From assembly GCF_000378465.1 (NCBI RefSeq), contig NZ_KB899914.1, forward strand, positions 1-64,000: DNA of 64,000 bases. The letters run 5' to 3'. Source of the DNA: Elioraea tepidiphila DSM 17972 (GTDB lineage: Bacteria; Pseudomonadota; Alphaproteobacteria; Acetobacterales; Acetobacteraceae). Below the pieces are notes generated by a model. The model was not told the DNA's origin. It searched no databases and saw only the letters and a program-made list of their open reading frames with translations. The position numbers and the translations under genes were made by a program. Shown here in pieces: positions 3,464-42,390 of this stretch (position 1 is the first letter of the stretch; every line of letters begins with the position of its first letter).

Positions 3464-3593
3464 CGCGGCGGGGGGCCGCAAGGCCCCCCGCACCCCCCCT
3501 GGAGGGCGGCCCTCCCGTTGGTCGGGCCGCGGCCCCCGACCAACGGGAGGGGGCCCCTGTGCAGGGGGTCCGGGGGACCAGCGTGGTCCCCCG
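3464..3593 (+). repeat. Composite three-hairpin intergenic repeat, copy 1
   Basis: About 130 bases between ybaB and gcdH hold three consecutive perfect hairpins. Hairpin A is a 9-bp stem with GCAA loop (3469-3490). Hairpin B has 17-bp arms around CCCGTTGGTCGGG and an 8-base loop (3510-3551). Hairpin C is a 10-bp stem CGGGGGACCA with a GCG loop (3571-3593). The G- and C-rich spacers are themselves partly complementary. The same modules occur in reverse order at 42256-42390. Function is unknown; hairpin A could terminate dnaX-ybaB transcription. Confidence 0.85.
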
Positions 3594-3638
3594 GTCCTCC
3601 TTGACTATACTCACGCCAAACCACGCGGAGGCCCCGCC

Positions 3639-4853
3639 ATGAACGTCATCACACCCGTCAGCAAGAAGCGCTCCCTCGCCAAGTTCACCTGGGAGGACCC
3701 GCTGCTGTTCGAGGAGCTCCTCACCGAGGACGAGCGGATGATCCGCGACTCCGCGCGCGACTACGCGCAGGAGAAGCTGATGCCGCGCGTGCTGGAGGCG
3801 AACCGCCACGAGCGCTTCGACCGCGAGATCATGAACGAGTACGGCGAGATGGGCTTCCTTGGCGCGACCCTCGACAGCCATGGCTGCGCCGGCATTTCCT
3901 ACGTCGCCTACGGCTTGATCGCGCGCGAAATCGAACGCGTCGATTCCGGCTACCGCTCCGCCTGGTCGGTGCAGTCCTCGCTCGTGATGTATCCGATCTG
4001 GGCGTTCGGGTCGGAGGCGCAGAAGGACAAGTACCTGCCGAAGCTGCGCACCGGCGAATGGGTCGGCTGCTTCGGCCTGACCGAGCCCGATGCGGGGTCC
4101 GATCCGGGCAGCATGCGCACGCGCGCGAAGAAGACCGCGAACGGCTATGTGCTGAACGGCTCCAAGACCTGGATCTCGAACTCGCCGATCGCCGACGTGT
4201 TCATCGTCTGGGCCAAGGATGACGCGGGCGAGATCCGCGGCTTCATCCTGGAGAAGGGGATGAAGGGGCTGACCGCGCCGAAGATCGAGGGCAAGTTCTC
4301 GCTGCGCGCCTCGATCACCGGGATGATCATGATGCAGGATGTCGAGGTCGGGGAAGATGCGCTCCTGCCCGGCGTGAAGGGGCTGAAGGGACCGTTCTCC
4401 TGCCTCAACAACGCGCGCTTCGGCATCGCCTGGGGCGTGCTCGGCGCGGCCGAGTTCTGCTGGCACGCCGCGCGCAGCTACACGCTCGAGCGCAAGATGT
4501 TCGGCCGTCCGCTGGCGGCGACCCAGCTCATCCAGAAGAAGCTCGCCGACATGCAGACCGAGATCACGCTCGGGCTGCACGCGGTGCTGCGGCTCGGGCG
4601 GCTGTGGGACGAGGGCAAGGTCGCGCCCGAGATGATCAGCCTGCTCAAGCGCAACAACTGCGGCAAGGCGCTCGACATCGCGCGGGTGAGCCGCGACATG
4701 CATGGCGGCAACGGCATCGTCGACGAGTATCACGTGATCCGCCACGTGATGAACCTCGAGACGGTGAACACCTATGAGGGCACGCACGACGTGCACGCGC
4801 TGATCCTCGGCCGCGCGCAGACGGGGATCGCCGCCTTCGCCGCCGGCGGGTGA
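3639..4853 (+). CDS. gcdH: Glutaryl-CoA dehydrogenase (acyl-CoA dehydrogenase family)
   Basis: A 404-residue flavoenzyme likely to oxidise and decarboxylate glutaryl-CoA to crotonyl-CoA in lysine/tryptophan or glutarate breakdown. Specific signatures are the substrate-binding [15 protein letters not shown] segment around residue 105, the [15 protein letters not shown] flavin motif, and the C-terminal [17 protein letters not shown] segment whose Glu is the catalytic base in this family. The length is typical. The ATG at 3639 was chosen because the conserved N-terminus ([17 protein letters not shown]) starts just after it and an AGGAGGC-like region (GCGGAGGCC) precedes it; the longer upstream frame runs through the repeat. 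No ETF genes are adjacent. Confidence 0.9.
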
Positions 4854-4878
4854 GCGACGGTTCCGTCCCGGTACATCT

Positions 4879-4927
4879 GCGTCACGGAGTGACGCGGCGC
4901 GCGGCGGCGCGATGTCCTCGCGCCGCC
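4879..4927 (+). terminator. Tandem hairpins downstream of gcdH
   Basis: Two perfect inverted repeats lie 25 bases after the gcdH stop: GCGTCAC/GTGACGC with a 3-base loop (4879-4895), and a 10-bp stem GGCGGCGCGA/TCGCGCCGCC with a 5-base loop (4903-4927). No T-run follows. Termination is inferred from position and stem strength. Confidence 0.5.
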
Positions 4928-4998
4928 GTCATCGTGTCCGGCTGCCCCCTGGGTTGACCTCCCGATCCGGGCACGGATGATGGTGGCGGAGGATTTGC

Positions 4999-6195
4999 AT
5001 GACGCCTGTTGCCATCGCTGATCCGGCCCCCGCCGACGCGCGCGTGCGCGACACGGTCGCATTGCTCGATCGGCTGGTGTCCTTCGACACCACCAGCCGC
5101 AACAGCAATCTCGCCTGCATCGGCTTCATCAAGGATTACCTGGCCAGGCACGGTGTCGAGTCGCGGCTCACCCACGATCCCACCGGCACCAAGGCGAATC
5201 TCTACGCGACGATCGGGCCGCAGGGTGTGCCGGGTGTCGCGCTCTCGGGTCATGTCGATGTGGTGCCGGTGGACGGGCAGGACTGGTCTTCCGATCCGTT
5301 CCGGCTGCGTCGCGCGCACGGCCGGCTCTACGGTCGCGGCACCTCGGACATGAAGGGCTTCGTCGCCGCCTGCCTCGCCATGGTGCCCGCGTTCCAGGCG
5401 CGCGGGCTCCGGCGCCCGATCCATCTCTGCTTCACCTATGACGAGGAGGTGGGCTGCCACGGCGCGCGCGTGCTGGCCGCCGATCTCGCTGCGCTGCCGG
5501 TGCGTCCGGAGATGGTGATCGTCGGCGAACCGTCGTCGATGAAGCCGATCCTCGGGCACAAGGGCAAGGTGTCGGCGACCTGCCGGGTCATCGGCCTCGC
5601 CGGCCACTCCTCGCGCCCTGACCGGGCGGTGAACGCTCTGCACGTGGGCGCCGAGATCGTATCGTTCCTCAATCGCCAGCAGGCGCGCATCATCGCCGAG
5701 GGGCCGCACGATGCGCGCTTCGATCCGCCCTGGACCTCCTGCCACGCCGGCGTGTTCCGCTCGGGCTCGGCGCTGAACATTGTCCCGCACGAGGCCGAGA
5801 TCGTGTTCGAGTACCGCCACATCCCGGCGCACGATGCCCGAATGCTGCTGGACGAGCTGCGCGCCCATGCCGAGACAGTGCTGCTGCCGCCGATGCGCGC
5901 GGTGCATCCGGGCGCGGCGATCACGTTCGACGAGCGGCCGCGACTTGCGGGCATGGACCTCGCCGAGGATCATCCGCTCGCCGACCTGGTGCGATCGCTC
6001 ACCGGCGCGAACGAGGCGGGCCGTGTCGCCTACGGCACCGAGGGCGGCATCTTCCAGGAGGCCGGCATGGCGGCGATCGTCTGCGGCCCGGGCGACATCG
6101 CCCAGGCGCACACGCCGGACGAATGGATCGCCGAGAGCGAGCTCGCGGCCTGCGCGGCGTTCCTCGCGCGTCTCGCCGATCGTCTCGCCGCCTGA
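4999..6195 (+). CDS. argE: Acetylornithine deacetylase (M20 peptidase family)
   Basis: A 398-residue zinc-dependent amidohydrolase of the M20 family. The ArgE type removes acetyl groups from N2-acetylornithine. Seen motifs are the FDTTSRNSNLACIGFIKDYL start, HVDVVPVDGQDW (first metal His and Asp), RGTSDMKGF, and TYDEEVGCHGA with the catalytic and metal Glu residues. GHSSRPDRAVNALH marks the dimerisation domain. It is followed after 7 bases by an aspartoacylase-like gene and then a binding protein. This context suggests a catabolic role on N-acyl amino acids as an alternative to arginine synthesis. Confidence 0.88.
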   Translation: MTPVAIADPAPADARVRDTVALLDRLVSFDTTSRNSNLACIGFIKDYLARHGVESRLTHDPTGTKANLYATIGPQGVPGVALSGHVDVVPVDGQDWSSDPFRLRRAHGRLYGRGTSDMKGFVAACLAMVPAFQARGLRRPIHLCFTYDEEVGCHGARVLAADLAALPVRPEMVIVGEPSSMKPILGHKGKVSATCRVIGLAGHSSRPDRAVNALHVGAEIVSFLNRQQARIIAEGPHDARFDPPWTSCHAGVFRSGSALNIVPHEAEIVFEYRHIPAHDARMLLDELRAHAETVLLPPMRAVHPGAAITFDERPRLAGMDLAEDHPLADLVRSLTGANEAGRVAYGTEGGIFQEAGMAAIVCGPGDIAQAHTPDEWIAESELAACAAFLARLADRLAA

Positions 6196-6202
6196 CGCCC
6201 GC

Positions 6203-7186
6203 ATGAGCGCGCCGACCCTGATCGCCCCCCGCCGGCGGGTCGAGATCCCGGTCCCGGACCTGACGCCGTGGCTTGCCGGCAATGCCGGGCTGCCGGGGTT
6301 CTGGACCGTCGCCGGCGCGCAGCCCGGCCCCCACACGGCGATCACCGCGCTGGTGCACGGCAACGAGATCGCGGGTGCGCTGGTGCTGGTGCGTCTGCTC
6401 GAGCGCGGCATCACGCCGCTGCGCGGCAGGCTCAGCCTCGGCTTCGCCAATCTCGACGCCTTCGCGCGCTTCGATCCCGCCAACCCGACCGCCAGCCGCT
6501 ATGTGGACGAGGACCTGAACCGCATCTGGTGCCGCGCGGTTCTGGACGGCGGCACCGAAACCTCGGAACTGCGGCGCGCGCGTGCGATGCGCCCGCTGAT
6601 CGACACGGTGGATGTGCTGCTCGACCTGCATTCGATGCTGTGGGAGAGCGAGCCGCTGCTGATCGCGGGCCAGCCCGAGAAGGGGCGCAAGCTGGCGCTC
6701 GCGGTAGGGGTGCCGCCGCTGGTGGTGGGCGACGAGGGACACTCCGGTGGGCGGCGGCTGATCGACTACCGCCCCTTCGCCGATCCGGGCTCGCCGCGCG
6801 TGGCGATCCTGGTGGAGGCGGGCCAGCATTGGGTGCCCGAAACGGTGGAGACCATGGCGGCGACGGTGGCACGGCTGCTGCTCGCGACCGGCCAGATCGA
6901 CGCGCAGGGCGCGGCGCGCCTCACCGAGGCGCCGCTCGATGCCGGCCCGGTCCGGCTCGCCCAGGTGACGCGCACCGTCACCGCGCAGACGAACGAGTTC
7001 GCATTCGTGCACCCCTATCGCGGCGGCGACATCGTCCGCGGACGCAACACGCTGATCGCGCTCGACGGCGAGACCGAGATCCGCACGCCGCATGACGACT
7101 GCCTGCTGGTGATGCCGTCCTTGCGCACCTGCCGCGGCCATACCGCGGTGCGGCTCGCCCGCCTGATCGATCCGATCCCGGCATAG
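6203..7186 (+). CDS. Succinylglutamate desuccinylase/aspartoacylase family zinc hydrolase
   Basis: A 327-residue M14-like carboxypeptidase fold protein. The zinc-binding HGNE motif is at LVHGNEIAGA (about residues 50-59) and the third ligand His lies in LLDLHSMLWESEPLLI. The segment YVDEDLNRIW, typical of AstE/aspartoacylase, lies between them. The substrate is unknown: N-acyl amino acids such as N-succinylglutamate or N-acetylaspartate are the family's usual targets. No other arginine succinyltransferase pathway gene (astABD) is adjacent. The ATG at 6203, 7 bases after argE, gives a protein of family length; the upstream extension overlaps argE. Confidence 0.82.
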   Translation: MSAPTLIAPRRRVEIPVPDLTPWLAGNAGLPGFWTVAGAQPGPHTAITALVHGNEIAGALVLVRLLERGITPLRGRLSLGFANLDAFARFDPANPTASRYVDEDLNRIWCRAVLDGGTETSELRRARAMRPLIDTVDVLLDLHSMLWESEPLLIAGQPEKGRKLALAVGVPPLVVGDEGHSGGRRLIDYRPFADPGSPRVAILVEAGQHWVPETVETMAATVARLLLATGQIDAQGAARLTEAPLDAGPVRLAQVTRTVTAQTNEFAFVHPYRGGDIVRGRNTLIALDGETEIRTPHDDCLLVMPSLRTCRGHTAVRLARLIDPIPA

Positions 7187-7266
7187 CACGTCGCTCGACC
7201 GGACAGGCGCACGATGGCAGAGTGCCGCCGTGCCCGAACGAGGCGCGTACTGAGGGAGGAACGATC

Positions 7267-8208
7267 ATGCTGAGCCGCACCGTCGCGTGCCTTGCCGCGC
7301 TTGCACTGTCCACAGCCGCGCTGGCGCAGGACTACCCGACGCGCGCCATCACGCTGATCGTGCCCTATCCGCCCGGCGGCAATACCGACCTGATGGCGCG
7401 CGCGTTGCAGCCGGAACTCTCCAAGGCGCTCGGCCAGCCGGTCGTGATCGTCAATCGCGGCGGCGCCGCGGGCTCGATCGGCACGACCGAACTCGCCCGC
7501 GCCCGGCCCGACGGCTACACGATCGCCATGGTGCCGAACAATCCGGTCACCGCGCAGCCGCACCTGAACCGGTTGCAGTATTCCGCCGAGACGCTGCGCT
7601 ACATCTGCCTCGTCTACGACAATCCGCAGGTGCTGGTGCTCGGGCGCAACGCGCCGTTCCGCGACTATGCCGGCATGGTGGCGCATGCGAAGTCCGGCGA
7701 GGAGGCGCTGGTGTACGGCTCGCCCGGCCAGGGCAGCACGCAGCACCTGCTGATGGCGCAGCTTCTGCGCGCGATCGGCGTTCGCGCGCTGCACGTGCCG
7801 TATCAGGGGGCGGGGCCGATGGCGCAGGCGGCACTCGGCGGGCAGATCATGGTCTTCATCGAGAGCCCGACCATCCCCGCCAACAACAACCTGCCGGTGC
7901 TGGCCGTGTTCTCGCGCGAGCGGTTGTCCTCGTTCCCCGACGCGCCGACGCTGGCGGAACTCGGCGTGCCGATCGAGGGCGCCTCGCACGGCGGGCTGGT
8001 GGCCCCCGACGGACTGCCGGATGCGATCGCGACAAAGCTGGAGGCGGCGTGCGAGACGGGGGTGACGTCCGAGACCTTCCGCACCGCGGCCACACGGCTT
8101 GCGGCGGTCGCGCGGTTCATGCCGGGCGCTGCGTTCCGCGAGCGCTTCGTCGCCGAGAGCGAGGCGAACAAGGGCACGATCGCCGCGCTGGGGCTCGCGC
8201 GGGAGTAG
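7267..8208 (+). CDS. Bug-family (TctC-like) tripartite tricarboxylate transporter substrate-binding protein
   Basis: A 313-residue periplasmic binding protein. It has a clear signal peptide (MLSRTVACLAALALSTAALA, cleavage before QDYP), then the Bug-family start YPTRAITLIVPYPPGGNTD and the VIVNRGGAAGSIG core. Bug proteins feed small carboxylates or amides to TctAB permeases or act in sensing; no TctAB is in the window. The ATG at 7267 is supported by the GAGGGAGGA ribosome site; the upstream ATG at 7222 would block the signal peptide. It probably belongs to the argE-aspartoacylase group (80-base gap). Confidence 0.9.
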   Translation: MLSRTVACLAALALSTAALAQDYPTRAITLIVPYPPGGNTDLMARALQPELSKALGQPVVIVNRGGAAGSIGTTELARARPDGYTIAMVPNNPVTAQPHLNRLQYSAETLRYICLVYDNPQVLVLGRNAPFRDYAGMVAHAKSGEEALVYGSPGQGSTQHLLMAQLLRAIGVRALHVPYQGAGPMAQAALGGQIMVFIESPTIPANNNLPVLAVFSRERLSSFPDAPTLAELGVPIEGASHGGLVAPDGLPDAIATKLEAACETGVTSETFRTAATRLAAVARFMPGAAFRERFVAESEANKGTIAALGLARE

Positions 8209-8217
8209 GCGCGGGCT

Positions 8218-8240
8218 GCCGGCTGCGCTATGCAGCCGGC
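8218..8240 (+). terminator. Hairpin after the Bug-family gene
   Basis: A perfect 9-bp stem, GCCGGCTGC/GCAGCCGGC, with a 5-base loop starts 10 bases after the binding-protein stop and ends 4 bases before the tRNA gene. Its position fits a terminator that separates the operon from the tRNA. Confidence 0.6.
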
Positions 8241-8244
8241 GGAT

Positions 8245-8333
8245 GCGGGCGTGGCGGAATTGGCAGACGCGCCGGGCTCAAAATCCGGTTCCCCGCGAGG
8301 GGAGTGTCGGTTCGACCCCGACCGCCCGCACCA
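8245..8333 (+). tRNA. tRNA-Leu (anticodon CAA)
   Basis: Complete cloverleaf: the 7-bp acceptor GCGGGCG pairs with CGCCCGC at 8323-8329, the anticodon stem CCGGG/TCCGG encloses the loop CTCAAAA with anticodon CAA, a long variable arm (CCCC/GGGG, about 8290-8304) marks a class II tRNA, and the T-loop TTCGACC is present. The 3' CCA (8331-8333) is encoded. It reads leucine UUG codons. Confidence 0.96.
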
Positions 8334-8336
8334 GGC

Positions 8337-9038
8337 TCAGAACCGCTCGACCCACGGCCGGAGCGCGATCTCCCAGGCCCAGGCGCTGCGATCCTGGTGC
8401 AACAGATCGAGATAGCTGCGCGCGATCGCATCCGGGTCGAGCAGGCTGTCCGGCGCGTCCGCGGGCTCCGGCCGTCGTGCCGAGCGGATGCCGCCGTCGA
8501 TCACCACATGCGCGACATGAATGCCCTGCGGCTGGAGCTCGCGCGCGAGGCTCTGCGCGAGCCCGCGCAGCGCGAACTTGCCCATCGCGAACGGGGCGGA
8601 CTGCGGATAGCCCTTCACGCTCGCCGAGGCGCCGGTGAACAGGATCGCCCCCTTGCCCGAAGGCGCCATCCGCTTCGTCGCCGCCTGCGCGACGAGGAAC
8701 CCGCCGAAGGCCGAGACCGTGAGCGTGCGCGCGACCTCGGCCGGATCGAGCGTCACGAACGGCCCGCGCACGCGGTAGCTCGCGTTGAACACCACGACAT
8801 CGGGCGGCCCGCCGAGGGCCGCGTCCATCGCCGCGAACAGCGCCTCGACCTGCTCCGGCACGGTCGCGTCGCAACGCTGCGTCACCGCGCCGGTCTCCTC
8901 CGCCAGCCCCGCGAGCTTGTCGACGGACCGCGCCGCGAGCCCCACCCGCATTCCCTCGCGCGCGAACAGCCGCGCGAGCGAGGCGCTGAGCCCCGCACCC
9001 ACGCCCACGATCAACGCGCGCTCGTAGTGATCCCGCAT
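8337..9038 (-). CDS. Short-chain dehydrogenase/reductase family protein with atypical active site
   Basis: A 233-residue Rossmann protein. The N-terminal cofactor loop is VGVGAGLSASLARLF (residues 11-25), the NAS motif is VFNAS (84-88), and the active-site strand is ILFTGASAS with the catalytic Ser. At the YxxxK position the sequence is F150-AMG-K154, so the catalytic Tyr is replaced by Phe. From memory, a subgroup of bacterial SDRs shows this change, so it is probably a family feature and the activity is uncertain. The ATG at 9038 has a GGGAGG ribosome site. The end lies 4 bases from the tRNA on the other strand. Confidence 0.85.
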   Translation of the reverse strand: MRDHYERALIVGVGAGLSASLARLFAREGMRVGLAARSVDKLAGLAEETGAVTQRCDATVPEQVEALFAAMDAALGGPPDVVVFNASYRVRGPFVTLDPAEVARTLTVSAFGGFLVAQAATKRMAPSGKGAILFTGASASVKGYPQSAPFAMGKFALRGLAQSLARELQPQGIHVAHVVIDGGIRSARRPEPADAPDSLLDPDAIARSYLDLLHQDRSAWAWEIALRPWVERF

Positions 9039-9140
9039 CGGAACCTCCCGGACCCGAGCCTCGCATGGCGCGGCTCCGCGCGTCATCGGGCGTGATGCGG
9101 CCAGGAGGGCGCGCTGCGCACCGACTCGTCGCGCCCGCGG

Positions 9141-9704
9141 TCACGGAGAACGCGCCGTCGGGCTGGGCCAACCAAGCATGCGACTGAGCGCGCCGTCCCG
9201 CAGCACGAGCTGGTGCCACAGAGCGGCCAGCACATGGGCCGCGATGGCTGCCAGCATCAGATTGGCCAGCATCTCATGAGCCTCCCCCCAAAGGCGGCCG
9301 CCCGGGATGGGCATGGGCGCCGGGAGGGGCAGCCCGCCAAACACCGTGACGCTCCGGCCACGCGCCCAGCGGTCGAGCAATCCGCTCAGCGGCACCGCGA
9401 CCGTCAGGCCCAGCAGCGTGAGATGCATCGCGGTCGCGGCGAAGCGCGCCCAGGCCGCCGCCGGGGCGATCGGCGGCGCCGAGATCAGCCGCCAGGCCAC
9501 GCGGAGCGCCGCCAGACCGAGCACCAGCACGCCCAGGCTGTAGTGCAGTTGCATCGCGAGGTCCCGGCTGGCGCCGCGCGGGACCTCCTCCATCGTGCTG
9601 CCGACCACCCAGGCCGACAGCACCACCAGCGCGGTCGCCCAGTGGATGACGCGGGTCGCCATCCCGAACGGCTGCGCCGCGACAGCGGTCGCCATCGCTT
9701 TCAC
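9141..9704 (-). CDS. Cytochrome b561-family membrane protein
   Basis: A 187-residue four-helix membrane protein of the bacterial cytochrome b561/DUF4405-like group, which moves electrons from quinol across the inner membrane. Candidate haem ligands are His in VIHWATAL (helix 1), MQLHYSLG (helix 2), and the two His of the EAHEMLANLMLAAIAAHVLA segment (last helices). It is followed upstream on the same strand by a PepSY protein 3 bases away, which suggests an operon. An alternative start is the Met three residues in (9695). Confidence 0.85.
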   Translation of the reverse strand: MKAMATAVAAQPFGMATRVIHWATALVVLSAWVVGSTMEEVPRGASRDLAMQLHYSLGVLVLGLAALRVAWRLISAPPIAPAAAWARFAATAMHLTLLGLTVAVPLSGLLDRWARGRSVTVFGGLPLPAPMPIPGGRLWGEAHEMLANLMLAAIAAHVLAALWHQLVLRDGALSRMLGWPSPTARSP

Positions 9705-9707
9705 CCC

Positions 9708-10019
9708 TCAGCGGCTGCGGGGCGTGACCGCGCCCGTCGTGGCGTCGACGCGCAGCGTGACGCGACGGCCCTGCGCGTCGGCGGCCTTGACCTTCCAGCC
9801 GCCACGCTCCCACTCCAGCTCGGTGACGGCCGAATAGCCCGCGCCGTAGACGGCGGCGATGGCGGCCGGGGCGTCGAATCGGGCGGTGGACGGCGCCACC
9901 GCCTCGCCCGCGCGGCGGTCGGCGCGGTTGCCGTCGTCAGAGGCGAGCACGGCCTGGAACGGGGCGGCGGTGGCGAGCGCCAGGGTCAGCGCGGCCAAGG
10001 GGCGGATGCGAGCCATCAT
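9708..10019 (-). CDS. Small periplasmic PepSY-domain protein
   Basis: A 103-residue secreted protein: MMARIRPLAALTLALATAAP signal peptide, then one PepSY-like domain with AAIAAVYGAGYSAVTELEWERGG and a C-terminal RVTLRVDATTGAVT strand pattern. PepSY domains occur next to cytochrome b561 and metal or haem redox proteins, and some inhibit proteases. AGGAGACC just upstream of the tandem Met codons (10019/10016) sets the start. It is first in a two-gene operon with cytochrome b561 and divergent from a second PepSY gene. Confidence 0.82.
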   Translation of the reverse strand: MMARIRPLAALTLALATAAPFQAVLASDDGNRADRRAGEAVAPSTARFDAPAAIAAVYGAGYSAVTELEWERGGWKVKAADAQGRRVTLRVDATTGAVTPRSR

Positions 10020-10080
10020 CGGTCTCCTGTGTTCTGCGTTGCGGCCTCTCCGCAACGGGCGGCACACTGGTCGCCCCCGC

Positions 10081-10120
10081 CTGAACCGAGGCTGAGCCCT
10101 CTGTTCAGCGACCGTTCAGC
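10081..10120. promoter_or_regulatory. Candidate OmpR-type operator, two oppositely oriented 11-bp-period repeats
   Basis: Between the divergent PepSY genes lie GTTCAGC at 10103-10109 and again at 10114-10120, exactly 11 bases apart. CTGAACC at 10081-10087 and CTGAGCC at 10092-10098 are also 11 apart and read as the complement of the same half-site. Direct heptamers with 11-base period are the classic binding pattern of OmpR/PhoB-family regulators. The regulator encoded at 10457 is the obvious candidate. Confidence 0.55.
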
Positions 10121-10142
10121 CGCGCTCGCGGATCGTGTGCCC

Positions 10143-10457
10143 ATGCGCCGAGCCCTTCTGCTGCTGCCGCTCCTGCTGCTGGTCTCTCGGCACGCCGAGG
10201 CGGACGACCGGCGCGACCACGAGCGGGCGCGCGCCGCGCTTGCCGCCGGCGAGATCCGTCCGCTTGCCGACTTGCTGGCCGAGGTGGAGGGCCGCTACGT
10301 CGGCCGGGTGATCGAGGCCGAACTCGATCGCGAGGACGGTCGCTGGGTCTACGAGATCAAGCTGCTGCCGCCGTCCGGCCGGGTCTTCGCGATCGAGCTC
10401 GATGCTGCGACCGGCGCCCTGCTGCGCAGCCGCGGGCCGGTCCAACAGCGGCGCTGA
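10143..10457 (+). CDS. PepSY-domain periplasmic protein in two-component operon
   Basis: A 104-residue protein with an N-terminal signal peptide (MRRALLLLPLLLLVSRHAEA), then a PepSY-like unit: ARAALAAGEIRPLADLLAEVE followed by VIEAELDREDGRWVYEIKLL and IELDAATGALL. Its stop overlaps the next start (TGATG), so it is translationally coupled to the response regulator. Similar PepSY proteins encoded ahead of OmpR-type systems may act as accessory periplasmic sensors or redox partners; the role here is inferred. The start ATG is 22 bases after the candidate operator. Confidence 0.82.
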   Translation: MRRALLLLPLLLLVSRHAEADDRRDHERARAALAAGEIRPLADLLAEVEGRYVGRVIEAELDREDGRWVYEIKLLPPSGRVFAIELDAATGALLRSRGPVQQRR

Positions 10458-28279: not shown

Positions 28280-28288
28280 GGAAGGGCC

Positions 28289-29477: not shown

Positions 29478-29502
29478 TGGGGGGACCACGCTGGTCCCCC
29501 CA
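29478..29502. terminator. Bidirectional hairpin, related to repeat module C
   Basis: A perfect 11-bp stem TGGGGGGACCA/TGGTCCCCCCA with a CGC loop lies between the convergent sirtuin and EF-G genes. Its core is the same as hairpin C of the composite repeat, and the C-rich text AGCCCCCCCTGCACC after it also matches the repeat. Confidence 0.65.
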
Positions 29503-29517
29503 GCCCCCCCTGCACCT

Positions 29518-33771: not shown

Positions 33772-34120
33772 CCGGAAGCTCGACGCGCAGCACCGATTGC
33801 TGGCCGAAGCGCTCGGCCCAGGCGCGTGCCACCGCCTCGACGGGTCCGCGCTCGCCCGACGGATGCAGCACGATGAGCACCAGTGTGGGTTCGGTGATCG
33901 TGCGGCCGGTCCCGGTGTCGCGCCAGCCGCCGGTGCCGGCGATCAGGGTGAACCCGGCCGGCAGATGCCGCGCGACCGTGTCGGCGACAAAGACCTCGAC
34001 CGCGCGGTCATCGACCACACCTCCAGCCGGGATCGCGCGGCCGAGATAGAGCGTGGTCTGCACATGCGTTGGCGGAGCGGCGCAGGAAGCGAGCAGAGCC
34101 GCGAGCGCCAGCGCCCTCAC
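33752..34120 (-). CDS. DUF3574 lipoprotein
   Basis: A 122-residue protein starting at a GTG (34120) that overlaps the stop of the upstream cupin gene (GTGA). The N-terminus VRALALAALLASCAAPP is a lipoprotein signal with lipobox LLASC. The body matches DUF3574: TTLYLGRAIPAGGVVDDRAVEVFVADTVARHLPAGFTL, then GRTITEPTLVLIVLHP and VEAVARAWAERFGQQSVLRVE. Function is unknown. The longer frame to 34294 has no signal and was rejected as the start. Confidence 0.8.
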   Translation of the reverse strand: MRALALAALLASCAAPPTHVQTTLYLGRAIPAGGVVDDRAVEVFVADTVARHLPAGFTLIAGTGGWRDTGTGRTITEPTLVLIVLHPSGERGPVEAVARAWAERFGQQSVLRVELPVSDLRF

Positions 34121-34563: not shown

Positions 34564-34567
34564 CGCG

Positions 34568-35176: not shown

Positions 35177-35189
35177 GCGGAACGTCCTT

Positions 35190-35921
35190 TCAGCGGAAGG
35201 AATCCTTGGCCGCGCGCAGTGCCGCGAACGCGGCCGCATCGCGCGCGTGCAGGAACGGGTTCGCCGCCTTCTCGGCGCCGAGCGTCACCGGCACGGTGGG
35301 CCGCCCGGCCGCCCGCTGCGCCTCGACCTCGGCGGCGCGCGCGCGCAAGGCAGCGTTGTCGGGCTCCACCGTCAGCGCGAAACGGGCGTTGGACTGGGTG
35401 TACTCGTGCCCGCAGAGCACGAGCGTGTCGTCCGGAAGCGCGGCGAGCCGCGTCAGCGCGGCGAAGAACTCCTCGGCCGAGCCCTCGAACATCCGCCCGC
35501 AGCCGAGCGAGAACAGCGTATCGCCGCAGGCGAGCACGCCCGCCTCGGGAAAGTGATAGGCGATGTGGCCGCGCGTGTGGCCCGGCGTGTCGATCACCAC
35601 GGCCTCGCTCTCGCCGACCGCGACCGTGTCGCCCGGGCTCACCGCACGGTCAAGCGCGGGCAGGCGGTGCGCATCCGCCGCCGCGCCGATCACAGCCGCG
35701 CCATGCGCCGCCTTCAGCGCCGCCACCCCGCCGACATGATCGCCGTGATGGTGCGTCAGCAGGATGAGCGCGGGCTCCCAGCCCCGCGCCGCGAGCGCGG
35801 CCTCGACCGGTCCGTCCTCGCCGGGATCGACCACGGCGACCGTGCCGGTGGCCTCATCGCGCAGCAGCCAGACATAGTTGTCGGAGAGGGCGGGGACGGG
35901 GACGATCTCGAGACGTGCCAT
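35190..35921 (-). CDS. gloB: Hydroxyacylglutathione hydrolase (glyoxalase II)
   Basis: A 243-residue metallo-beta-lactamase fold enzyme that hydrolyses S-lactoylglutathione to lactate and glutathione. The metal motif T56-HHHGDH (His57, His59, Asp61, His62) is followed by DTPGHTRGHIAYHF and the C-terminal CGHEYTQSNARFAL and ANPFLHARD typical of GloB. Length is near the usual 255. It is divergent from a methyltransferase gene, a pairing often seen in alphaproteobacteria. Confidence 0.95.
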   Translation of the reverse strand: MARLEIVPVPALSDNYVWLLRDEATGTVAVVDPGEDGPVEAALAARGWEPALILLTHHHGDHVGGVAALKAAHGAAVIGAAADAHRLPALDRAVSPGDTVAVGESEAVVIDTPGHTRGHIAYHFPEAGVLACGDTLFSLGCGRMFEGSAEEFFAALTRLAALPDDTLVLCGHEYTQSNARFALTVEPDNAALRARAAEVEAQRAAGRPTVPVTLGAEKAANPFLHARDAAAFAALRAAKDSFR

Positions 35922-36002
35922 GGCGCGTTCCTACCACCCGCCCCTCTCCCGGCCAACCGAGCCGGCGCTGGGTTTGGGCCCAGCGCGTGCTATGAGGGCG
36001 CG

Positions 36003-36725
36003 ATGGCGGAGGATGCCGGCGCCCTCACCCGCTTCTACGCCTCGCCGCACGGCAAGGTGGTGACCACCACGCTGCGGACGAGGCTGCGCGCGCTCTGGCC
36101 GGTCGTTCCGGGGACGCGCACGCTTGGGCTCGGCTATGCGTTGCCCTATCTGCGCGTCTGGCGCACCGAGCCGCGCGACCGCACGGTCGCCTGCCTGCCG
36201 GTGCAGATGGGGCCCGCACGCTGGCCGCGCCACCGGCCGAACCTCGCCTGCGTGGCCGAGGAGGACCGGCTGCCGTTTCCTGACCTCCATTTCGATCGCG
36301 TTCTGATGGTGCATGCGCTGGAACACGCCGGTCAGACGCGGCGGATGCTGCGCGAGGCGTGGCGGGTGCTCAAGGACGACGGGCGGCTGATCGTGGTGGT
36401 GCCGAACCGCACCGGCTGGTGGGCCTATGCCGAGCGTACGCCCTTCGGCCATGGCCGCCCGTTCTCGGCCGATCAGCTCGCGCGGCTGCTGGAGGCGACG
36501 ATGTTCCGCGCGCTCCGTCGCGACGGCGCGCTCTACCTGCCGCCCTTCGCCTGGCGGCCACTGCTCCGCACGGCCGGCGCCTGGGAGCGGCTCGGCCGGC
36601 GGCTCGGCCCGCGCCTCGCCGGTGTCGTCATCGTCGAGGCGTCAAAGGACATGTACGCCGCCATCCCGGCAGCCGAGGCAGCGCCCGCGCGCAGGCGCGT
36701 GATGACTGCGGTGGACAGCGGCTGA
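36003..36725 (+). CDS. Class I SAM-dependent methyltransferase
   Basis: A 240-residue protein of the methyltransferase type 11 kind. The SAM loop is a divergent TLGLGYALPYLRVW; EEDRLPFPDLHFDRVLMVHALEHA and AWRVLKDDGRLIVVVPNR are the standard motifs II-III. The substrate is unknown. The ATG at 36003 is just after the divergent promoter region with gloB. It is a conserved neighbour of gloB in this bacterial class. Confidence 0.82.
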   Translation: MAEDAGALTRFYASPHGKVVTTTLRTRLRALWPVVPGTRTLGLGYALPYLRVWRTEPRDRTVACLPVQMGPARWPRHRPNLACVAEEDRLPFPDLHFDRVLMVHALEHAGQTRRMLREAWRVLKDDGRLIVVVPNRTGWWAYAERTPFGHGRPFSADQLARLLEATMFRALRRDGALYLPPFAWRPLLRTAGAWERLGRRLGPRLAGVVIVEASKDMYAAIPAAEAAPARRRVMTAVDSG

Positions 36726-36735
36726 AAGGCGGTGA

Positions 36736-36759
36736 CGGCCGGCCCCGCCGGGCCGGCCG
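36736..36759. terminator. Bidirectional hairpin between methyltransferase and PRC-barrel genes
   Basis: A perfect 10-bp stem CGGCCGGCCC/GGGCCGGCCG with a 4-base loop starts 11 bases after the methyltransferase stop and ends 19 bases before the stop of the convergent PRC-barrel gene. Confidence 0.6.
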
Positions 36760-36778
36760 CCTGCCGCGCCTGCCGCGA

Positions 36779-37276
36779 TCAGGCCGGATACTCGAACGCC
36801 GGCAGCTCGCGCAGGCTGTCACGCGTGGCCCCGGGTAGGGTCACGTTGCCCTCGCGGTCGATCTGCAGCCGCTCGAACGGCACCGCGACCAGCTTGGCGC
36901 CGATGCCCAGGAAACCGCCGACCGACAGCACCGCCACGGGCACGCGCTCGTCCGGCGTGATGATCAGGTCGTCGATCGAGCCGATGCTCTCGCGCTCGCC
37001 GTTGCGCACGGTCGCGCCGACCACCTTGGAGGCGCGCATGCCGGACGCGGCGACCGCGGCCGGATCGGCCGCGCGCGGGGCGGCGGGCATCGCCTGCGAG
37101 GGCGTGGCCGGTGTCGCGGGCATGGCGGCGGGCGGGGTCGGGGGCGCGACGCGCTCGGGAAGCGGCTGGCCCGGCATGGCGGGCGCCGCCGGATCGGTGG
37201 TGGTCTGCTGCGCCAATGCCGGGCTGACGATGACGCCGGCGAGCAGCATCGCCCTGATCGTGTCGTTGAGTCGCAT
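36779..37276 (-). CDS. Secreted PRC-barrel domain protein
   Basis: A 165-residue protein: signal peptide MRLNDTIRAMLLAGVIVSPA-LAQ, a Pro/Ala/Met-rich linker (residues about 27-75), then a PRC-barrel domain (ASKVVGATVRNGERESIGSIDDLIITPDERVPVAVLSVGGFLGIGAKLVAVP). Such proteins are common in the alphaproteobacterial periplasm and of unknown function. The linker is low-complexity. The upstream long frame to 38296 antisense to recX/azlC is not real. Confidence 0.85.
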   Translation of the reverse strand: MRLNDTIRAMLLAGVIVSPALAQQTTTDPAAPAMPGQPLPERVAPPTPPAAMPATPATPSQAMPAAPRAADPAAVAASGMRASKVVGATVRNGERESIGSIDDLIITPDERVPVAVLSVGGFLGIGAKLVAVPFERLQIDREGNVTLPGATRDSLRELPAFEYPA

Positions 37277-37404
37277 GGTCCATTCCTTCCTTCGCTCTGG
37301 ACCGTCGGGCGGAGGTTCATGCGCCGGCCCGCGATCTGACCGGAGAACGGCGCATCGCGGGCACGGTTTCGTCCGGCTCACCCGCCTGTCATGCTTCTGC
37401 GGCC

Positions 37405-37986
37405 ATGACGCGCCGGCCGCGCCCGCTTCCGCCCCCGACCGAGGCCTCGCTGCACGAGGCCGCGGTCGCGCATCTCGCGCGTTTCGCGGCGACGCGGGCG
37501 GGGCTGCTGCGCGTGCTCGCCAACCGGATCGCGCGCTGGGCTCGGACGGCCGAGGTCTCCGACGACGAGCGCGACCGCGCGATCGCAGCGGCGCGCGCCG
37601 CCGCCGAGGCGGTGGTGGCGCGCCTCGCCGCGGCCGGGGCGGTGGACGATGCGGCCTTCGCCGCCGCGCGTGCCCGCCGGCTCGCGCGCAGCGGCCGGTC
37701 CGCCGCGGCGATCGGGGCGCATCTCGCGGCGAAGGGCGCCGGCGAGGCGGCAGGTGATGCGATCGACGCCGCCCTGCCGGATGACGATGCCCGCCTCGCC
37801 GCCGTTCTGATCGCCGCGCGCAAGCGGCGCATCGGTCCCTATGGTCCGCCCGACCCGCCGCCCGAGGCGCGCCGCAAGGCGCTCGCCGCGCTGGCCCGCG
37901 CCGGCTTTCCGCGCGCGCTCGCCGAGGCCGCGCTGGCGATGGACGCCGAGGAGGCGGAGGCACGCATCGCCGCGTTCCGTCGCTGA
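37405..37986 (+). CDS. recX: RecX-family regulatory protein
   Basis: A 193-residue, Arg/Ala-rich helical protein. It has the RecX three-helix repeats: SLHEAAVAHLARFAATRAGLLRVLANRI, GAVDDAAFAAARARRLARSGRS with the FAxxxxRxL pattern, and the C-terminal RRKALAALARAGFPRALAEAALAM. RecX modulates RecA filaments. It is not beside recA here. Its stop overlaps the azlC start (TGATG). Confidence 0.82.
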   Translation: MTRRPRPLPPPTEASLHEAAVAHLARFAATRAGLLRVLANRIARWARTAEVSDDERDRAIAAARAAAEAVVARLAAAGAVDDAAFAAARARRLARSGRSAAAIGAHLAAKGAGEAAGDAIDAALPDDDARLAAVLIAARKRRIGPYGPPDPPPEARRKALAALARAGFPRALAEAALAMDAEEAEARIAAFRR

Positions 37987-38693
37987 TGCGCGTGATCGCC
38001 ACCGGCGCGGGGTTCCGCCGCGGCGCGCGCGCGACCCTGCCCCTGACCGTCGGGCTCGTTCCCTTCGGCCTGGTTGTCGGCGTGCTGGCGCAGGCGCAGG
38101 GCCTCTCGGCGCTGGAACAGGCGCTGATGAGCGCGCTCGTCTTCGCCGGCTCCTCGCAGATCCTGGCGCTGGAGTTCTGGACCGACCCGGCGCCGATCGC
38201 CTCGGCCACCCTCGCGGCGCTCGCGGTGAACGTGCGCTTCGCGCTGATGGGCCCCTCGCTCGCGCCCTGGATCGACGCGCTGAAGGGCGTGCGCAAATGG
38301 GCGACCGTGAGCGCGATCGTCGATCACGCCTGGGCGCTGGCGATCGCCGAGATGCGCGCGGGCCGGCACGACGCGCTGTTCTATCTCGGCTCGGCGGTGA
38401 CGCTGTGGAGCGCCTGGCTCGCGACCACGATCCTCGGTCATGCGCTCGGCGCAGTGGTGGCGTTGCCGCGCGGTCATCCGCTGTTCTTCGCCGCCCCGGC
38501 CTGTTTCATCGCGCTGCTGGTGCCGATCTGGCGCGGACGCGGCGATGCCGCGCCCTGGGCGATCGCGGCCGCGGTGTCGCTCGGCGTCGGGCCGCTGTTG
38601 CCGAACCCGGCGCTGGCGGTGGTGAGCGGCGCGGTCGCGGGCAGCCTCGCCGGCGCGCTGCGCGAGACCGCGGGCGGGGCAGGGCAGCGATGA
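37986..38693 (+). CDS. azlC: AzlC-family amino acid exporter, large subunit
   Basis: A 235-residue membrane protein of the AzlC/YgaZ family, which with AzlD exports branched-chain amino acids or analogues. It begins with a basic segment then TLPLTVGLVPFGLVVGVLAQAQG, and contains SALVFAGSSQILALEFW and NVRFALMGPSLAPWI. Translational coupling to recX upstream and to azlD downstream (ATGA overlap) is seen. Confidence 0.9.
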   Translation: MRVIATGAGFRRGARATLPLTVGLVPFGLVVGVLAQAQGLSALEQALMSALVFAGSSQILALEFWTDPAPIASATLAALAVNVRFALMGPSLAPWIDALKGVRKWATVSAIVDHAWALAIAEMRAGRHDALFYLGSAVTLWSAWLATTILGHALGAVVALPRGHPLFFAAPACFIALLVPIWRGRGDAAPWAIAAAVSLGVGPLLPNPALAVVSGAVAGSLAGALRETAGGAGQR

Positions 38694-38992
38694 GCCTCGA
38701 CCCCGTCACGCTCGCCGCGATCCTCGGCATGGCGCTCGCCACCTTCGCCTGCCGCGCCTCGGGCTATCTGGTGCTGCGGCGCGTGCAGCCGGGGCCGTTC
38801 CTGCGCGCCTTCCTGGGCCATGTGCCGGGCACGCTGTTCGTCGCCTTCGCCGCCCCGGCGGTGGTGCGCGAGGGGTGGCCCGGGTTCGTCGGCGCGGCGG
38901 CGACGCTGCTCGTCATGCGCGCGACCGGCTCGACGCCGTTGGCGCTGCTGGTCGGAGTCGCGGCCTTCTGGCTCGCGCGCACGCTCATGTAG
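38690..38992 (+). CDS. azlD: AzlD-domain protein, exporter small subunit
   Basis: A 100-residue protein with three to four hydrophobic helices: LAAILGMALATFACRASGYLVL, FLRAFLGHVPGTLFVAFAAPAVV, and PLALLVGVAAFWLARTL. This is the AzlD/YgaH partner of AzlC. It overlaps azlC by 4 bases. Confidence 0.9.
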   Translation: MSLDPVTLAAILGMALATFACRASGYLVLRRVQPGPFLRAFLGHVPGTLFVAFAAPAVVREGWPGFVGAAATLLVMRATGSTPLALLVGVAAFWLARTLM

Positions 38993-39029
38993 TGCACGGG
39001 CTGACGCGCCGCGACCCGGCGATGACGAG

Positions 39030-39203
39030 GTGGAGCGGTTCGATCTCTGGCCGATCGCCCCGGTGTTCGCCGCGGTGCGCGACACGGACGCGTTCAAGTT
39101 CAACGTCAATCTGATGCTGATCGACCTGTTCCTGCGCGAAGGCCTGATCCCGGCCGGCGAGGGCGCGACGCGGCTGCGCGCGGCGCTCGATCAGGGCGGC
39201 TGA
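39030..39203 (+). CDS. Small conserved-looking protein of unknown function
   Basis: A 57-residue frame from a GTG at 39030: VERFDLWPIAPVFAAVRDTD, then AFKFNVNLMLIDLFLREGLI and a short Arg/Leu-rich tail ending DQGG. The balanced composition with aromatic, Asn and Asp residues differs from the Arg/Ala-rich shadow ORFs of this genome, and it fills the only gap between azlD and the chemoreceptor. I do not recognise a named family. The start is uncertain, and the same frame extends upstream into azlD. Confidence 0.55.
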   Translation: MERFDLWPIAPVFAAVRDTDAFKFNVNLMLIDLFLREGLIPAGEGATRLRAALDQGG

Positions 39204-39358
39204 GGAGCTGCTGCCCGCGCAGACCTCCGCTGTAACCGCCGCACGCCGACCGGGGGTGCGTCGTAACGCGAACTTAAGGCGCCGAGGTAATGGTGGTGGC
39301 CACACGGGGCCCGGCGCGGCGGACCGCAGCGGCCCTGTCGCAACGAAGGAAGGTCGCC

Positions 39359-41056
39359 ATGCGCTTCACCAATCTCCGCTTCACGCCCAAGATCGCCGTG
39401 CTGGCCGTGTGCCTGACGCTGCTGCTGGCCGCTGTCGCCGGTGCCGGATTAAAGGGCATCACCGCCCTTTCGGGCCGTCTGGACGAGGTCGCGGCGGCCG
39501 GGCATTCGGCCAGTCAGGCCGGTACACTCGGCCGGGCGGCGCTGCAGATCCGCCGGCGCGAAAACCAGCTCGCCGCCGAACCGACCGCGGCGGTCGTGTC
39601 GGTGGCCCGCGCGGCGATGAGCGAGCAGGGCGCGCTCTTCCGCCAGACGGTGGCGGAAGCAAGGGCCAGCGCCGGCGCGGCGCGGCAAGCGGTGCTCGCC
39701 CGGCTGGAGCCCGCCTTCGTCGCCTACCAGGCAGCGGCGGAGAGGACTCTCGCCGCCGCCGAGGCGGTCGCCGCCGGACGCGACGATCGGACGGCGGTGC
39801 TGGAGGCGCTGCGCAACTCCGTGGCCGCGTTCGATACGGTCGAGGAGCTTGCGCGCGACCTCGACCGGACCGCCATCCGGGTCGCTGAAACCCTGGCCGC
39901 AGAGTCGGTCGCCGAGGCCAACGTCCTTCTCACCGTGATGCTTGCCTTTGCCGGCGTCGGCCTCACCGCGGCGGGCGCACTGGCCTGGGCGATCGGGGCG
40001 CGCGGAATCGCCGCGCCGGTACGCGCGGCCGCAGGCCGGCTCAAGGCGCTGGCCGAGGGGGATACCGAGAGCCCGATCCCCGGCGAGGGCCGACGGGACG
40101 AGGTCGGCGACATCGCGGCGGCGATGGCCGTCTTCCGCGACAATCTGATCCGCACCCGCGAGATGCAGGAGGAGATGGCCCGGAAAGACCAGGAAGCCAG
40201 GCAGGAACGACGGCGCGCTCTGCTCGCAGCAGCGGACCAGTTTGAGGCCGAGGTCGGCTCGGTCGTGAAGAGCGTCGCCGCCGCTGCAACCGAGATGGAA
40301 GCATCCGCGACGGGGATGGCTGCGGGAGCGGAGGAGACCTCGCGGCAGGCGACGGCGGTGGCTGCGGCGGCGGAGCAGGCGAGTGCGAACGTGCAGACCG
40401 TCGCCTCGGCCGCCGAGGAACTTGCCGCCTCGATCGCCGAGATCAGCCGCCAGGTCGCGGAGAGCACGCGCATCGCCTCGGAGGCGGTGTCGGAGGCGAC
40501 CCGCACGAACAGCACCGTCGAGTCGCTGGCCGCGAGCGCGCACCGGATCGGCGAGGTGGTGCGTCTGATCAACGACATCGCCGGCCAGACCAACCTGCTG
40601 GCGCTGAACGCGACGATCGAGGCGGCGCGCGCCGGCGAGGCGGGCAAGGGCTTCGCGGTGGTCGCCTCGGAGGTGAAGAACCTCGCCTCGCAGACGGCGA
40701 AGGCGACCGAGGAGATCGGCGGCCAGATCGCCGCGGTGCAGGGCGAGACCGGCCGGGTGGTGGAGGCGATCCGGGCGATCGGCGGCACGATCGAGAAGAT
40801 CAGCGGCATCGCCGCCTCGATCGCGGCGGCGGTGGAACAGCAGGGGGCGGCGACCGCCGAGATCGCGCGCAACGTGCAGCAGGCGGCCGCCGGCACGGGC
40901 GCGGTGTCGGCGAATATCGGCTCGGTGCAGGAGGCGGCCGCCGGCTCCGGCGCGGCCGCCGCACAGGTCCAGGGCGCGGCCGCCGAACTCAGCCGCGGCG
41001 CCGAGACCCTGCGCACCCAGGTCGAGCGCTTCCTCGCCGAGATGAAGGCCGCCTGA
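39359..41056 (+). CDS. Methyl-accepting chemotaxis protein
   Basis: A 565-residue chemoreceptor. TM1 is at about residues 11-30, a helical periplasmic domain of about 155 residues follows, TM2 is around 187-210, then a HAMP domain and the cytoplasmic signalling hairpin. The receptor tip contains [23 protein letters not shown] followed by [17 protein letters not shown]. The ATG at 39359 has a GAAGGAAGG site. No che genes are nearby, so it is an orphan receptor; the ligand is unknown. Part of its signalling domain is identical in DNA to the receptor at 56795. Confidence 0.93.
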
Positions 41057-41083
41057 CCGCCACGCCACACAGCAAAACACCAC

Positions 41084-41107
41084 GAAGGGGGCCGCAAGGC
41101 CCCCTTC
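41084..41107. terminator. Bidirectional hairpin with GCAA tetraloop
   Basis: A perfect 10-bp stem GAAGGGGGCC/GGCCCCCTTC closed by GCAA lies between the convergent chemoreceptor and CoA-transferase genes. Apart from its first three bases it is the same as hairpin A of the composite repeat. Confidence 0.7.
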
Positions 41108-41128
41108 CCCCATCCCACAAGAACCAGA

Positions 41129-42250
41129 TCAGGACGCGAACTCAGCCCTGATCCGGTCCGAATGCTCGCCGATCGCCGGGATGCGCCCCGGCTCGCGCGT
41201 GCCCTCGGCCCAGCGCACCGGCGGCGCGGCGTAGCGCACGGGGCCGTTCGGCGTCGTGACCTCGATCCGGCGGAGAGCCGGATGCTTCGCGAGATCGGCG
41301 ACTTCGTTGACGAAGCCGTAGGCGATCGCGCCCCGGTCGAGGCGCGCGCGGGCTTCCTCGCGCGACAGCGTGGCGAAGATCGCCGCGATGTGGCCGTCCA
41401 CCTCGGCGCGGTTCTTCACGCGGATCACGTTTGTCTCGAAGCCGGGTCGTTTCGGCAGCTCCGGTTCCAGCAGCACGTGGGTGCAGAGATTCGCCCATTC
41501 GCGCTCGTTCTGGATCGAGATCAGCACAAGCGATCCGTCGGCCAGCGCAAAGGCGCCGTAGGGCGAGATCGAGGGGTGCGCGAGGCCGACGCGCTTCGGC
41601 GCCACCCCTGAACCCTCGTATGTGATGAGCGGCACGTTCATCCAGTCGGCCATGCCGTCGAACAGGCTGACCGCGAGCCCCGCACCCTTGCCGGTGATGC
41701 CGCGCTGGATCAGTGCTTCGAGCACCCCCGCATAGGCCGCCATGCCGCAGGCGATGTCGCAGACCGACACGCCGACGCGGCCTGGCCCGGCGGGGTGGCC
41801 GGTGACGGCGCAGAGCCCGCTCTCCGCCTGCACCAGCAGGTCGTAGGCCTTCATCTTCGCGTACTCGCCTTCCTCGCCGTAGCCGGAGATGTCCACGGTG
41901 ATCAGGCGCGGGTTCTTCTCACGCAGGCTGGCGGAGCCGAAGCCGGCGCGCGCGGCCGCGCCCGGCGCGAGGTTCTGGATGAACACGTCAGCGCGCGCGA
42001 TGATGCGATGGAGCAGTGCCGCGTCGTCGGGGTTCTTGATGTCGGCGACCAGCGATTCCTTGCCGCGGTTGAGCCAGACGAAGTAGCTCGACATGCCCTT
42101 GGCGTAGTCGTCGTACCCGCGCGCAAAGTCACCCTCGGGGCGTTCGAGCTTGATCACCCGCGCACCGGCATCGGCGAGCTTGCAGGACAGGAACGGTGCC
42201 GCGACGGCTTGTTCCAGCGTGAGGACGAGCAGGCCTTCGAGTGGGTTCAT
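41129..42250 (-). CDS. CaiB/BaiF-family (class III) CoA-transferase
   Basis: A 373-residue CoA-transferase. It begins MNPLEGLLVLTLEQAVAAPF, then LADAGARVIKLERPEGDFAR, the catalytic Asp region (FVWLNRGKESLVADIKNPDD and VFIQNLAPGAAARAGFG), and the family's C-terminal HPALRRIEVTTPNGPVRYAAPPVR. Family members move CoA between carboxylic acids such as succinate, mesaconate or citramalate. It is downstream of an acyl-CoA dehydrogenase on the same strand, but the hairpin repeat lies between them. The substrate is not predictable from the sequence. Confidence 0.9.
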   Translation of the reverse strand: MNPLEGLLVLTLEQAVAAPFLSCKLADAGARVIKLERPEGDFARGYDDYAKGMSSYFVWLNRGKESLVADIKNPDDAALLHRIIARADVFIQNLAPGAAARAGFGSASLREKNPRLITVDISGYGEEGEYAKMKAYDLLVQAESGLCAVTGHPAGPGRVGVSVCDIACGMAAYAGVLEALIQRGITGKGAGLAVSLFDGMADWMNVPLITYEGSGVAPKRVGLAHPSISPYGAFALADGSLVLISIQNEREWANLCTHVLLEPELPKRPGFETNVIRVKNRAEVDGHIAAIFATLSREEARARLDRGAIAYGFVNEVADLAKHPALRRIEVTTPNGPVRYAAPPVRWAEGTREPGRIPAIGEHSDRIRAEFAS

Positions 42251-42255
42251 TCAGT

Positions 42256-42390
42256 TGCGGGGGGACCACGCTGGTCCCCCGCACCCCCCTGCACCTGGGG
42301 GCCCCCTCCCGTTGGTCGGGGCCCGCGTCGCGACCAACGGGAGCGACGCCCTCCAGGGGGGGGTGCGGGGGGCCTTGCGGCCCCCCGCCT
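42256..42390 (-). repeat. Composite three-hairpin intergenic repeat, copy 2 (reverse orientation)
   Basis: The same modules as at 3464-3593 but reverse-complemented: hairpin C (GCGGGGGACCA family, about 42258-42282), hairpin B with arms around CCCGTTGGTCGGG and CGACCAACGGGAG (42306-42342), and hairpin A (GCGGGGGGCC, loop TTGC, about 42366-42388). The C-rich spacers CACCCCCCTGCACCTGGGGG and CCCTCCAGGGGGGGGTG match those of copy 1. It lies between the acyl-CoA dehydrogenase and the CoA-transferase. Confidence 0.85.

Follow-up and report, generated by a model that had tools for sequence, protein, structure and literature searches.

An intergenic repeat of Elioraea composed of inverted half-units with a common loop and unlike stems

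Introduction

The first 64,000 nt of contig NZ_KB899914.1 of Elioraea tepidiphila DSM 17972 (the whole stretch analysed here, called the window) contain two copies of a composite palindromic repeat located between genes, and the question they raise is what such an element is made of, how widely it occurs and what could maintain it in the genome. An earlier note on this DNA described each copy as three hairpins and assigned both to a family of palindromic intergenic elements spread around the chromosome of this lineage, perhaps similar to repetitive extragenic palindromes (REPs) or to miniature inverted-repeat transposable elements (MITEs). In this work we find that a full copy joins two half-units in inverted orientation as a hetero-dimer, each half consisting of an outer terminator-like hairpin, a spacer with a run of C or G, and a hairpin with an 11-nt loop (the B hairpin). 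The interpretation that we prefer, at a probability of about 0.5, is that of a lineage-specific composite family, similar to REPs and bacterial interspersed mosaic elements (BIMEs), which would act as a bidirectional terminator or structured 3′ end and would be maintained by recombination.

Results

Copy 1 lies on the forward strand at 3468-3594, between ybaB and an acyl-CoA dehydrogenase gene, and copy 2 on the reverse strand at 42257-42388, with a CoA-transferase family III gene on one side and a second acyl-CoA dehydrogenase gene on the other. Their module order is identical and their orientation opposite, as the earlier note had said, and Pfam confirms the two acyl-CoA dehydrogenase neighbours (3639, forward; 42399-43568, reverse). 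From 5′ to 3′ the element consists of outer hairpin A, a closing strand CCCCCC, hairpins B1 and B2, GGGGGG, and outer hairpin C. In copy 1 these are A at 3468-3491 (10-bp stem and GCAA loop, T-rich outward on the minus strand), the 5′ strand of the closing helix (CCCCCC...) at 3493-3505, whose partner is part of 3556-3568, B1 at 3506-3530 (stem GCGGCCC/GGGCCGC; loop TCCCGTTGGTC at 3513-3523), B2 at 3531-3555 (stem GGCCCCC/GGGGGCC; loop GACCAACGGGA at 3538-3548, complementary to that of B1), the 3′ strand of the closing helix (...TGCAGGGGG) at 3556-3568, and C at 3570-3594 (11-bp stem, GCG loop), followed by TCCTCCTT. In copy 2, A lies at 42365-42388, one B hairpin at 42325-42349 (stem GCGTCGC/GCGACGC; loop 42332-42342), the other at 42300-42324 (stem GGCCCCC/GGGGCCC, with one mismatch; loop 42307-42317) and C at 42257-42282. 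The two copies form the second and third longest inverted-repeat pairs of the window, which overlap (88 nt at 83% and 46 nt at 93% complementarity), and each of them, on either strand, folds better than all of 200 dinucleotide shuffles (z from -5.8 to -8.3).

Both outer hairpins of the original description stand, whereas its middle one resolves into two adjacent hairpins of 25 nt, B1 and B2, each with a 7-bp stem and an 11-nt loop complementary to the other; the sequence given for it, CCCGTTGGTCGGG, is most of one loop plus stem bases of one of these two. The three-hairpin arrangement is rejected on the grounds that the B1 and B2 stems pair locally (on average 13.4 of 14 bases) and pair with each other less than in any permutation. 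Among 28 pairs from Elioraea, which include copies at shared sites of related genomes and are thus not fully independent, B1 and B2 abut directly in 23 (the 14 nt between the loops being two stem arms) and the loops are fully complementary in 20. When loop-loop pairs are counted, 93.6% of the cells in an alignment of 13 copies are paired and 18 pairs have changed on both sides, and none of 500 shuffles reaches any of the five covariation measures; the most conserved part is the 11-nt loop, even though it is unpaired locally. Cross-pairing between the B1 and B2 stems is less complementary than in all 500 shuffles of the 13 copies and below all 2000 permutations of the 28 pairs. Not a single pair carries identical stems, all 28 being different with or without a filter of at least two local pairs per half, and yet both positions draw on a common pool (GCGTCGC and GGCCCCC are each seen as B1 and as B2). 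Beside the loop, 19 of the 28 combine CC with GC, a number reached in 21 of 2000 permutations, and none combines GC with GC. This high local pairing, together with cross-pairing below every permutation, shows the core to consist of two inverted units that share a loop and differ in their stems.

In the genome of the window (G000, a 4.3 Mb draft; G001-G006 are six congeners and L-numbers are loci), blastn with copy 1 returned 60 matches, corresponding to at least ~38 distinct places, a lower bound from scoring 40 of 77 first-look candidates. Some of these are full copies, whereas others have a single B hairpin (L018, L021), are shortened or are solo half-units, i.e., one outer hairpin plus ACCCCCCTGCA or similar; the window itself has one of the latter at 29480-29515 on the reverse strand, with a C-type hairpin and a G-run/TGCA spacer only. 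A covariance model built from the 13 copies and run with stricter filters on 60 genomes matched five, all of the same genus as the window (42 matches in G000, 29 in G006, 14 in G002, 7 in G001 and 2 in G005, both strands counted), that is, four of the six congeners, with no match in G003, G004 or the 53 genomes of other relatives. The family proposed in the earlier note is therefore real: further copies are many rather than absent, and their module order is kept. Among 385 alphaproteobacterial genomes the loop-pair pattern occurs in two, G000 with 13 matches and another with a single match lacking local stems. Carriage by plasmids or phages is rejected on searches that gave, for plasmids, a single 35-nt match in Embleya and, for the one viral contig carrying an Elioraea-type element (L195), no near-identical match among phages.

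Some peculiarities of individual loci may be recorded here. Two elements stand side by side at L046 (G000:C15:50972-51235), and long C or G runs, possibly hypermutable or due to assembly error, occur in or beside the spacers (L046, L167). A second short palindrome, TCCCATCGCGGCAAGCCGCGATGGGA, is present at about a dozen G000 sites (19 matches on both strands at up to 3 mismatches). G000 and G002 have one copy of it (G000:C13:18832-18857; L011, L048) inside an outer-hairpin loop, and G006 lacks it at the same site, an insertion or loss at base resolution.

The core recurs in another phylum. A search for the exact loop pair in one genome per species returned at least 113 stretches and, among the matches listed, the carriers are Elioraea (four), the Edaphobacter/Granulicella/Terriglobus group, bins of Acidobacteriales/Acidobacteriaceae and one labelled only bacterium. 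A relaxed pattern occurs in 14 of 237 Acidobacteriota genomes, six with 87, 86, 59, 58, 50 and 7 matches and eight with one each, some of these lacking symmetry and chance-like; read-backwards controls gave 0 or 1 match per genome. Forty-five of these elements have an end hairpin on either side (GTCCTGCCGGAC or near); they are 170-236 nt long and share a 12-nt end repeat. In 91-96% of 137 elements (127 after a local-pair filter) the two bases flanking a loop are paired locally, mainly as CC/GG or GC/GC, and hetero-pairs of these types prevail; both features lie outside the search pattern and agree with Elioraea. The 137 comprise 66 combinations of CC with GC, 32 of CC with CC, one of GC with GC and 38 others; so many hetero-pairs arise in no permutation out of 2000 (mean 45.0), and cross-pairing as low is seen in 44 of 2000. 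By crude gene calls, 77 elements lie between convergent (31), tandem (36) or divergent (10) genes, five more are too far from genes and seven fall inside predicted reading frames. No plasmid match was found for the Acidobacteria element. Some arms (for example at L101 and L122) carry the hairpin GGGCGTTCGCACGCC followed by TTTTT, terminator-like and facing the core.

Complementary loops on adjacent hairpins invite the thought of a structured RNA, either a 3′-UTR element or a small RNA, whose loops would kiss or which would switch between two hairpins and one long hairpin. Loop complementarity is indeed higher than permutation gives (in both groups it is equalled by 4 permutations of 2000, in the sets filtered for two or more local pairs per half), and in Elioraea the two folds are close, the long hairpin differing from the two by -4.8 kcal/mol on average (25 cores; range -11.3 to +1.7), as opposed to -25.5 kcal/mol in hypothetical homodimers, with the kissing energy outside the model. 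Any inverted dimer, however, has complementary loops, the element reads almost alike on either strand and has no fixed strand, and in the 137 Acidobacteria cores the long hairpin is favoured by 9 to 36 kcal/mol. Within the window no Rfam family matches the element at gathering score; five other loci give nothing up to E 1, and copies 1 and 2 (E up to 5) give only sub-threshold hits, mostly to microRNA families. An RNA function of this kind seems to us highly improbable.

What happens to the element at a given site was followed by comparing flanks of element-bearing loci, 37 in G000 against those of G001, G002, G005 and G006. Nine G000 sites have the element and both matching flanks in at least one congener, and the site of copy 2 carries it in G002, G001 and G006 as well. 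Within shared sites the differences are module-wise: stem GCGTCGC/GCGACGC against GCGCCGC/GCGGCGC, outer loops and closing pairs differing together, and B2 present or absent, with G000-G002 flanks mostly 91-95% identical. At L012 the full element of G000 corresponds to one outer hairpin in G006, and the right flank of L010 has A and C in G006 without the B hairpins. At the ybaB gene end G006 carries a solo hairpin. Of the seven aligned ortholog pairs, four are more alike after flipping one element, most clearly L006/L059 (identity 0.82 flipped and 0.71 unflipped, with flanks ~95% identical); the other three still reach 0.70-0.75 when flipped because the element is nearly palindromic. The neighbours of L010 and L009 (G000:C6:171905 and 176990) are exchanged in G006 (L270 on C13, L240 on C302), with element remnants at both junctions, and G001 keeps the G000 arrangement at L009; this would be an inversion, although the G006 junctions lie on two contigs. 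In G006 the left flank of L001 (ybaB) likewise adjoins the right flank of L018. Such breakpoints suggest that these repeats may act as points of rearrangement.

These observations could also be expected from a mere by-product of DNA instability, in which recombination would multiply chance terminator palindromes, and template-switch correction keep them perfect, around a functionless core. Coordinated multi-base differences in stems and loops between such similar flanks, in-place flips and copies at breakpoints would all suit this explanation. Template switching leaves unexplained, on the other hand, why the locally unpaired 11-nt loop should be the most conserved part, and the same loop recurs in another phylum, which makes us regard a by-product as improbable.

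As for a transposing enzyme, the screen covered the REP transposase domain (Y1_Tnp, PF01797; RAYT), which was found in none of the seven Elioraea genomes, drafts of which four are less than 90% complete; it is present in four of eight Acidobacteria genomes carrying the core. Thirteen Elioraea elements show no target-site duplication longer than 3 nt, and in 43 Acidobacteria elements direct repeats adjacent to the ends are at permutation level. A RAYT-driven REP doublet (REPIN) is thus rejected for Elioraea, as is a MITE with target duplication, so that the two standard engines are disfavoured. Of the two likenesses offered in the earlier note, which had suggested looking for such duplications, that to REPs fits better than that to MITEs, given the lack of duplications, the solo half-elements and the inverted-dimer nature of full copies. 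PMC3733652 mentions tyrosine transposases of Acidobacteria flanked by terminal repeats. An element-flanked transposase is rejected in Elioraea, since the gene between the two C45 copies resembles, by eye, an Fe-S oxidase subunit.

The main rival is a single-strand transposase of another class, moving a miniature element in trans by reading folded single strands, much as RAYT does on REPINs, with the B hairpins as recognition sites and an incidental likeness to terminators. High copy number, inverted dimers of a conserved hairpin and no target duplication would agree with this, as would the sharing of loop and local stem types with high-copy elements of another phylum, which is what a recognised site would show. 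Gene ends with and without the element exist across congeners: 3′ of ybaB (compared in the genomes other than G001) a different, unrelated-looking hairpin stands in G003, G004 and G005, and the left gene of L034 has in G001 no recognisable element and a different right neighbour. Apart from the missing Y1_Tnp in Elioraea, this explanation has to face the nine G000 sites in common with a congener, and the finding of no empty site with both flanks intact among seven queried (a comparison that excludes G006 at L015, G002 and G001 at L012, G002 at L010, and G006 and G002 at L034 and L021, and in which G002 at L023 ends with its contig). We consider it rather unlikely.

The outer hairpins are of several interchangeable kinds (GCC-GCAA-GGC, GCC-ATT-GGC, ACCA-GCG-TGGT, ACGA-CCG-TCGT and others). 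Outward of 65 of them, a set that includes orthologous sites and perhaps a few hairpins that do not belong, T makes up 40-54% at positions 4-8 and 8-25% at positions 22-30. In 36 of the ~38 G000 places, with crude automatic gene calls, the median distance is 4 nt to the stop codon (38 gene 3′ ends) as opposed to 18.5 nt to 34 gene 5′ ends; copy 1 starts 10 nt after the stop of the YbaB gene. With a G/C-rich hairpin, a T-rich tract after it and a gene 3′ end nearby, these outer ends have the form that characterises an intrinsic terminator.

Elsewhere in the window, Rfam at gathering score identifies a signal recognition particle RNA (1191-1284) and a tRNA (8245-8330), and two neighbouring direct repeats, 153 nt at 77% and 300 nt at 85% identity, link 40345-40808 with 58405-58868 and may be paralogous coding sequence.

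Discussion

The interpretation preferred here, that of a terminator-like composite family maintained by recombination, would work in the following way. The outer hairpins with their outward T-tracts would end transcription arriving from either side, making the element a bidirectional terminator and a structured 3′ end of mRNA. Recombination, gene conversion or template switching among the copies, and not a transposase of the known REP type, would copy and homogenise it, a mode of spread that fits the module differences, the flips and the breakpoints. With unlike B stems, in turn, the element would avoid becoming a single long perfect palindrome, which would be unstable.

Several points weigh against this interpretation. 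Genes around the G000 copies are 28 times in tandem, 5 times convergent and 3 times divergent (n = 36), not clearly different from the 17, 6 and 2 of ordinary window gaps (n = 25), so that no convergent-gene bias was found in Elioraea and, given the medians above, it is the closeness to stop codons that is notable and not gene orientation. T-tracts are also found on ends facing no gene 3′ end, and could reflect a target preference instead. We infer gene conversion from sequence comparison, in which the identities of different G000 copies (0.64-0.95; 12 copies) and of the seven ortholog pairs in flank orientation (0.63-0.88) overlap, and the counting of shared-site copies separately lets relatedness inflate the statistics. 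Avoidance of palindromes fits the Acidobacteria less well, because their cores favour the long hairpin and 13 of the 137 have identical stems over five bases.

These last two facts also speak against homology between the cores of the two phyla, as does the fixing of the loops by the search itself and the unrelated look of the outer modules. Even so, a common origin or a common recognising factor seems likelier than coincidence; the core may have been transferred between the two phyla, or one factor may recognise it in both. It is tempting to go further and propose, tentatively and at less than even odds, mobile hairpin hetero-dimers crossing phyla, in which one 11-nt loop in both orientations, on two local stems, would be the recognition core in Elioraea and in the Edaphobacter/Granulicella/Terriglobus group, spread by a non-RAYT enzyme or by a host pathway, either of which would also favour unlike halves.

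Among known systems, BIMEs and the rhizobial RIME/ABC elements are intergenic mosaics of palindromic modules. The Elioraea element is likewise an intergenic mosaic of several interchangeable palindromic modules, a likeness of architecture; our best reading is that it represents a new REP/BIME-like mosaic family. Searches on rhizobial mosaics, Granulicella, Acidobacteria RAYT, mosaic hairpin repeats and Elioraea repeats gave no description of it in the titles and openings of abstracts listed, and one on palindromic intergenic repeats of Edaphobacter turned up no paper, with subscription journals thinly covered in both cases. MITEs share the inverted-repeat architecture (in Acidobacteria with the 12-nt end repeat), and differ from the Elioraea element in their target duplication, of which none was seen here.

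REPINs, as far as the available parts of PMC3116915 and PMC8266576 describe them, are also inverted pairs of a conserved intergenic hairpin with solo singlets and compensatory changes, and the inverted doublet that characterises REPs and REPINs is indeed found in Elioraea. Unlike them, however, the Elioraea element has a conserved 11-nt loop, additional outer terminator-like hairpins, no homodimer among 28 pairs and no Y1_Tnp found, and the GTAG end of REPINs is, by eye, not conserved in the 13-copy alignment. Closer in some respects are the CGTC REPs of PMC3733652, which, in the part of that paper available, are common in Alphaproteobacteria, have no dedicated transposase, form head-to-head dimers (some with structured spacers) and show in many families an excess of hetero-dimers. 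These end in CGTC and have 8-9 bp stems starting with AT, loops of 4-5 nt and a CCA-like tail, whereas the Elioraea element has 7-bp G/C-rich stems, 11-nt loops and, by eye, no such tail, with CGTC occurring only inside one common stem, GCGTCGC. The Elioraea element is an addition to the REP/BIME-like families in which the core is unusual and no transposase is known, and its in-place flips and breakpoints point to such repeats shaping the chromosome. For the hetero-dimer preference itself the same part of PMC3733652 gives no obvious explanation and proposes protection from palindrome-cutting enzymes; a family in which every pair examined is a hetero-dimer offers a natural test case for this puzzle.

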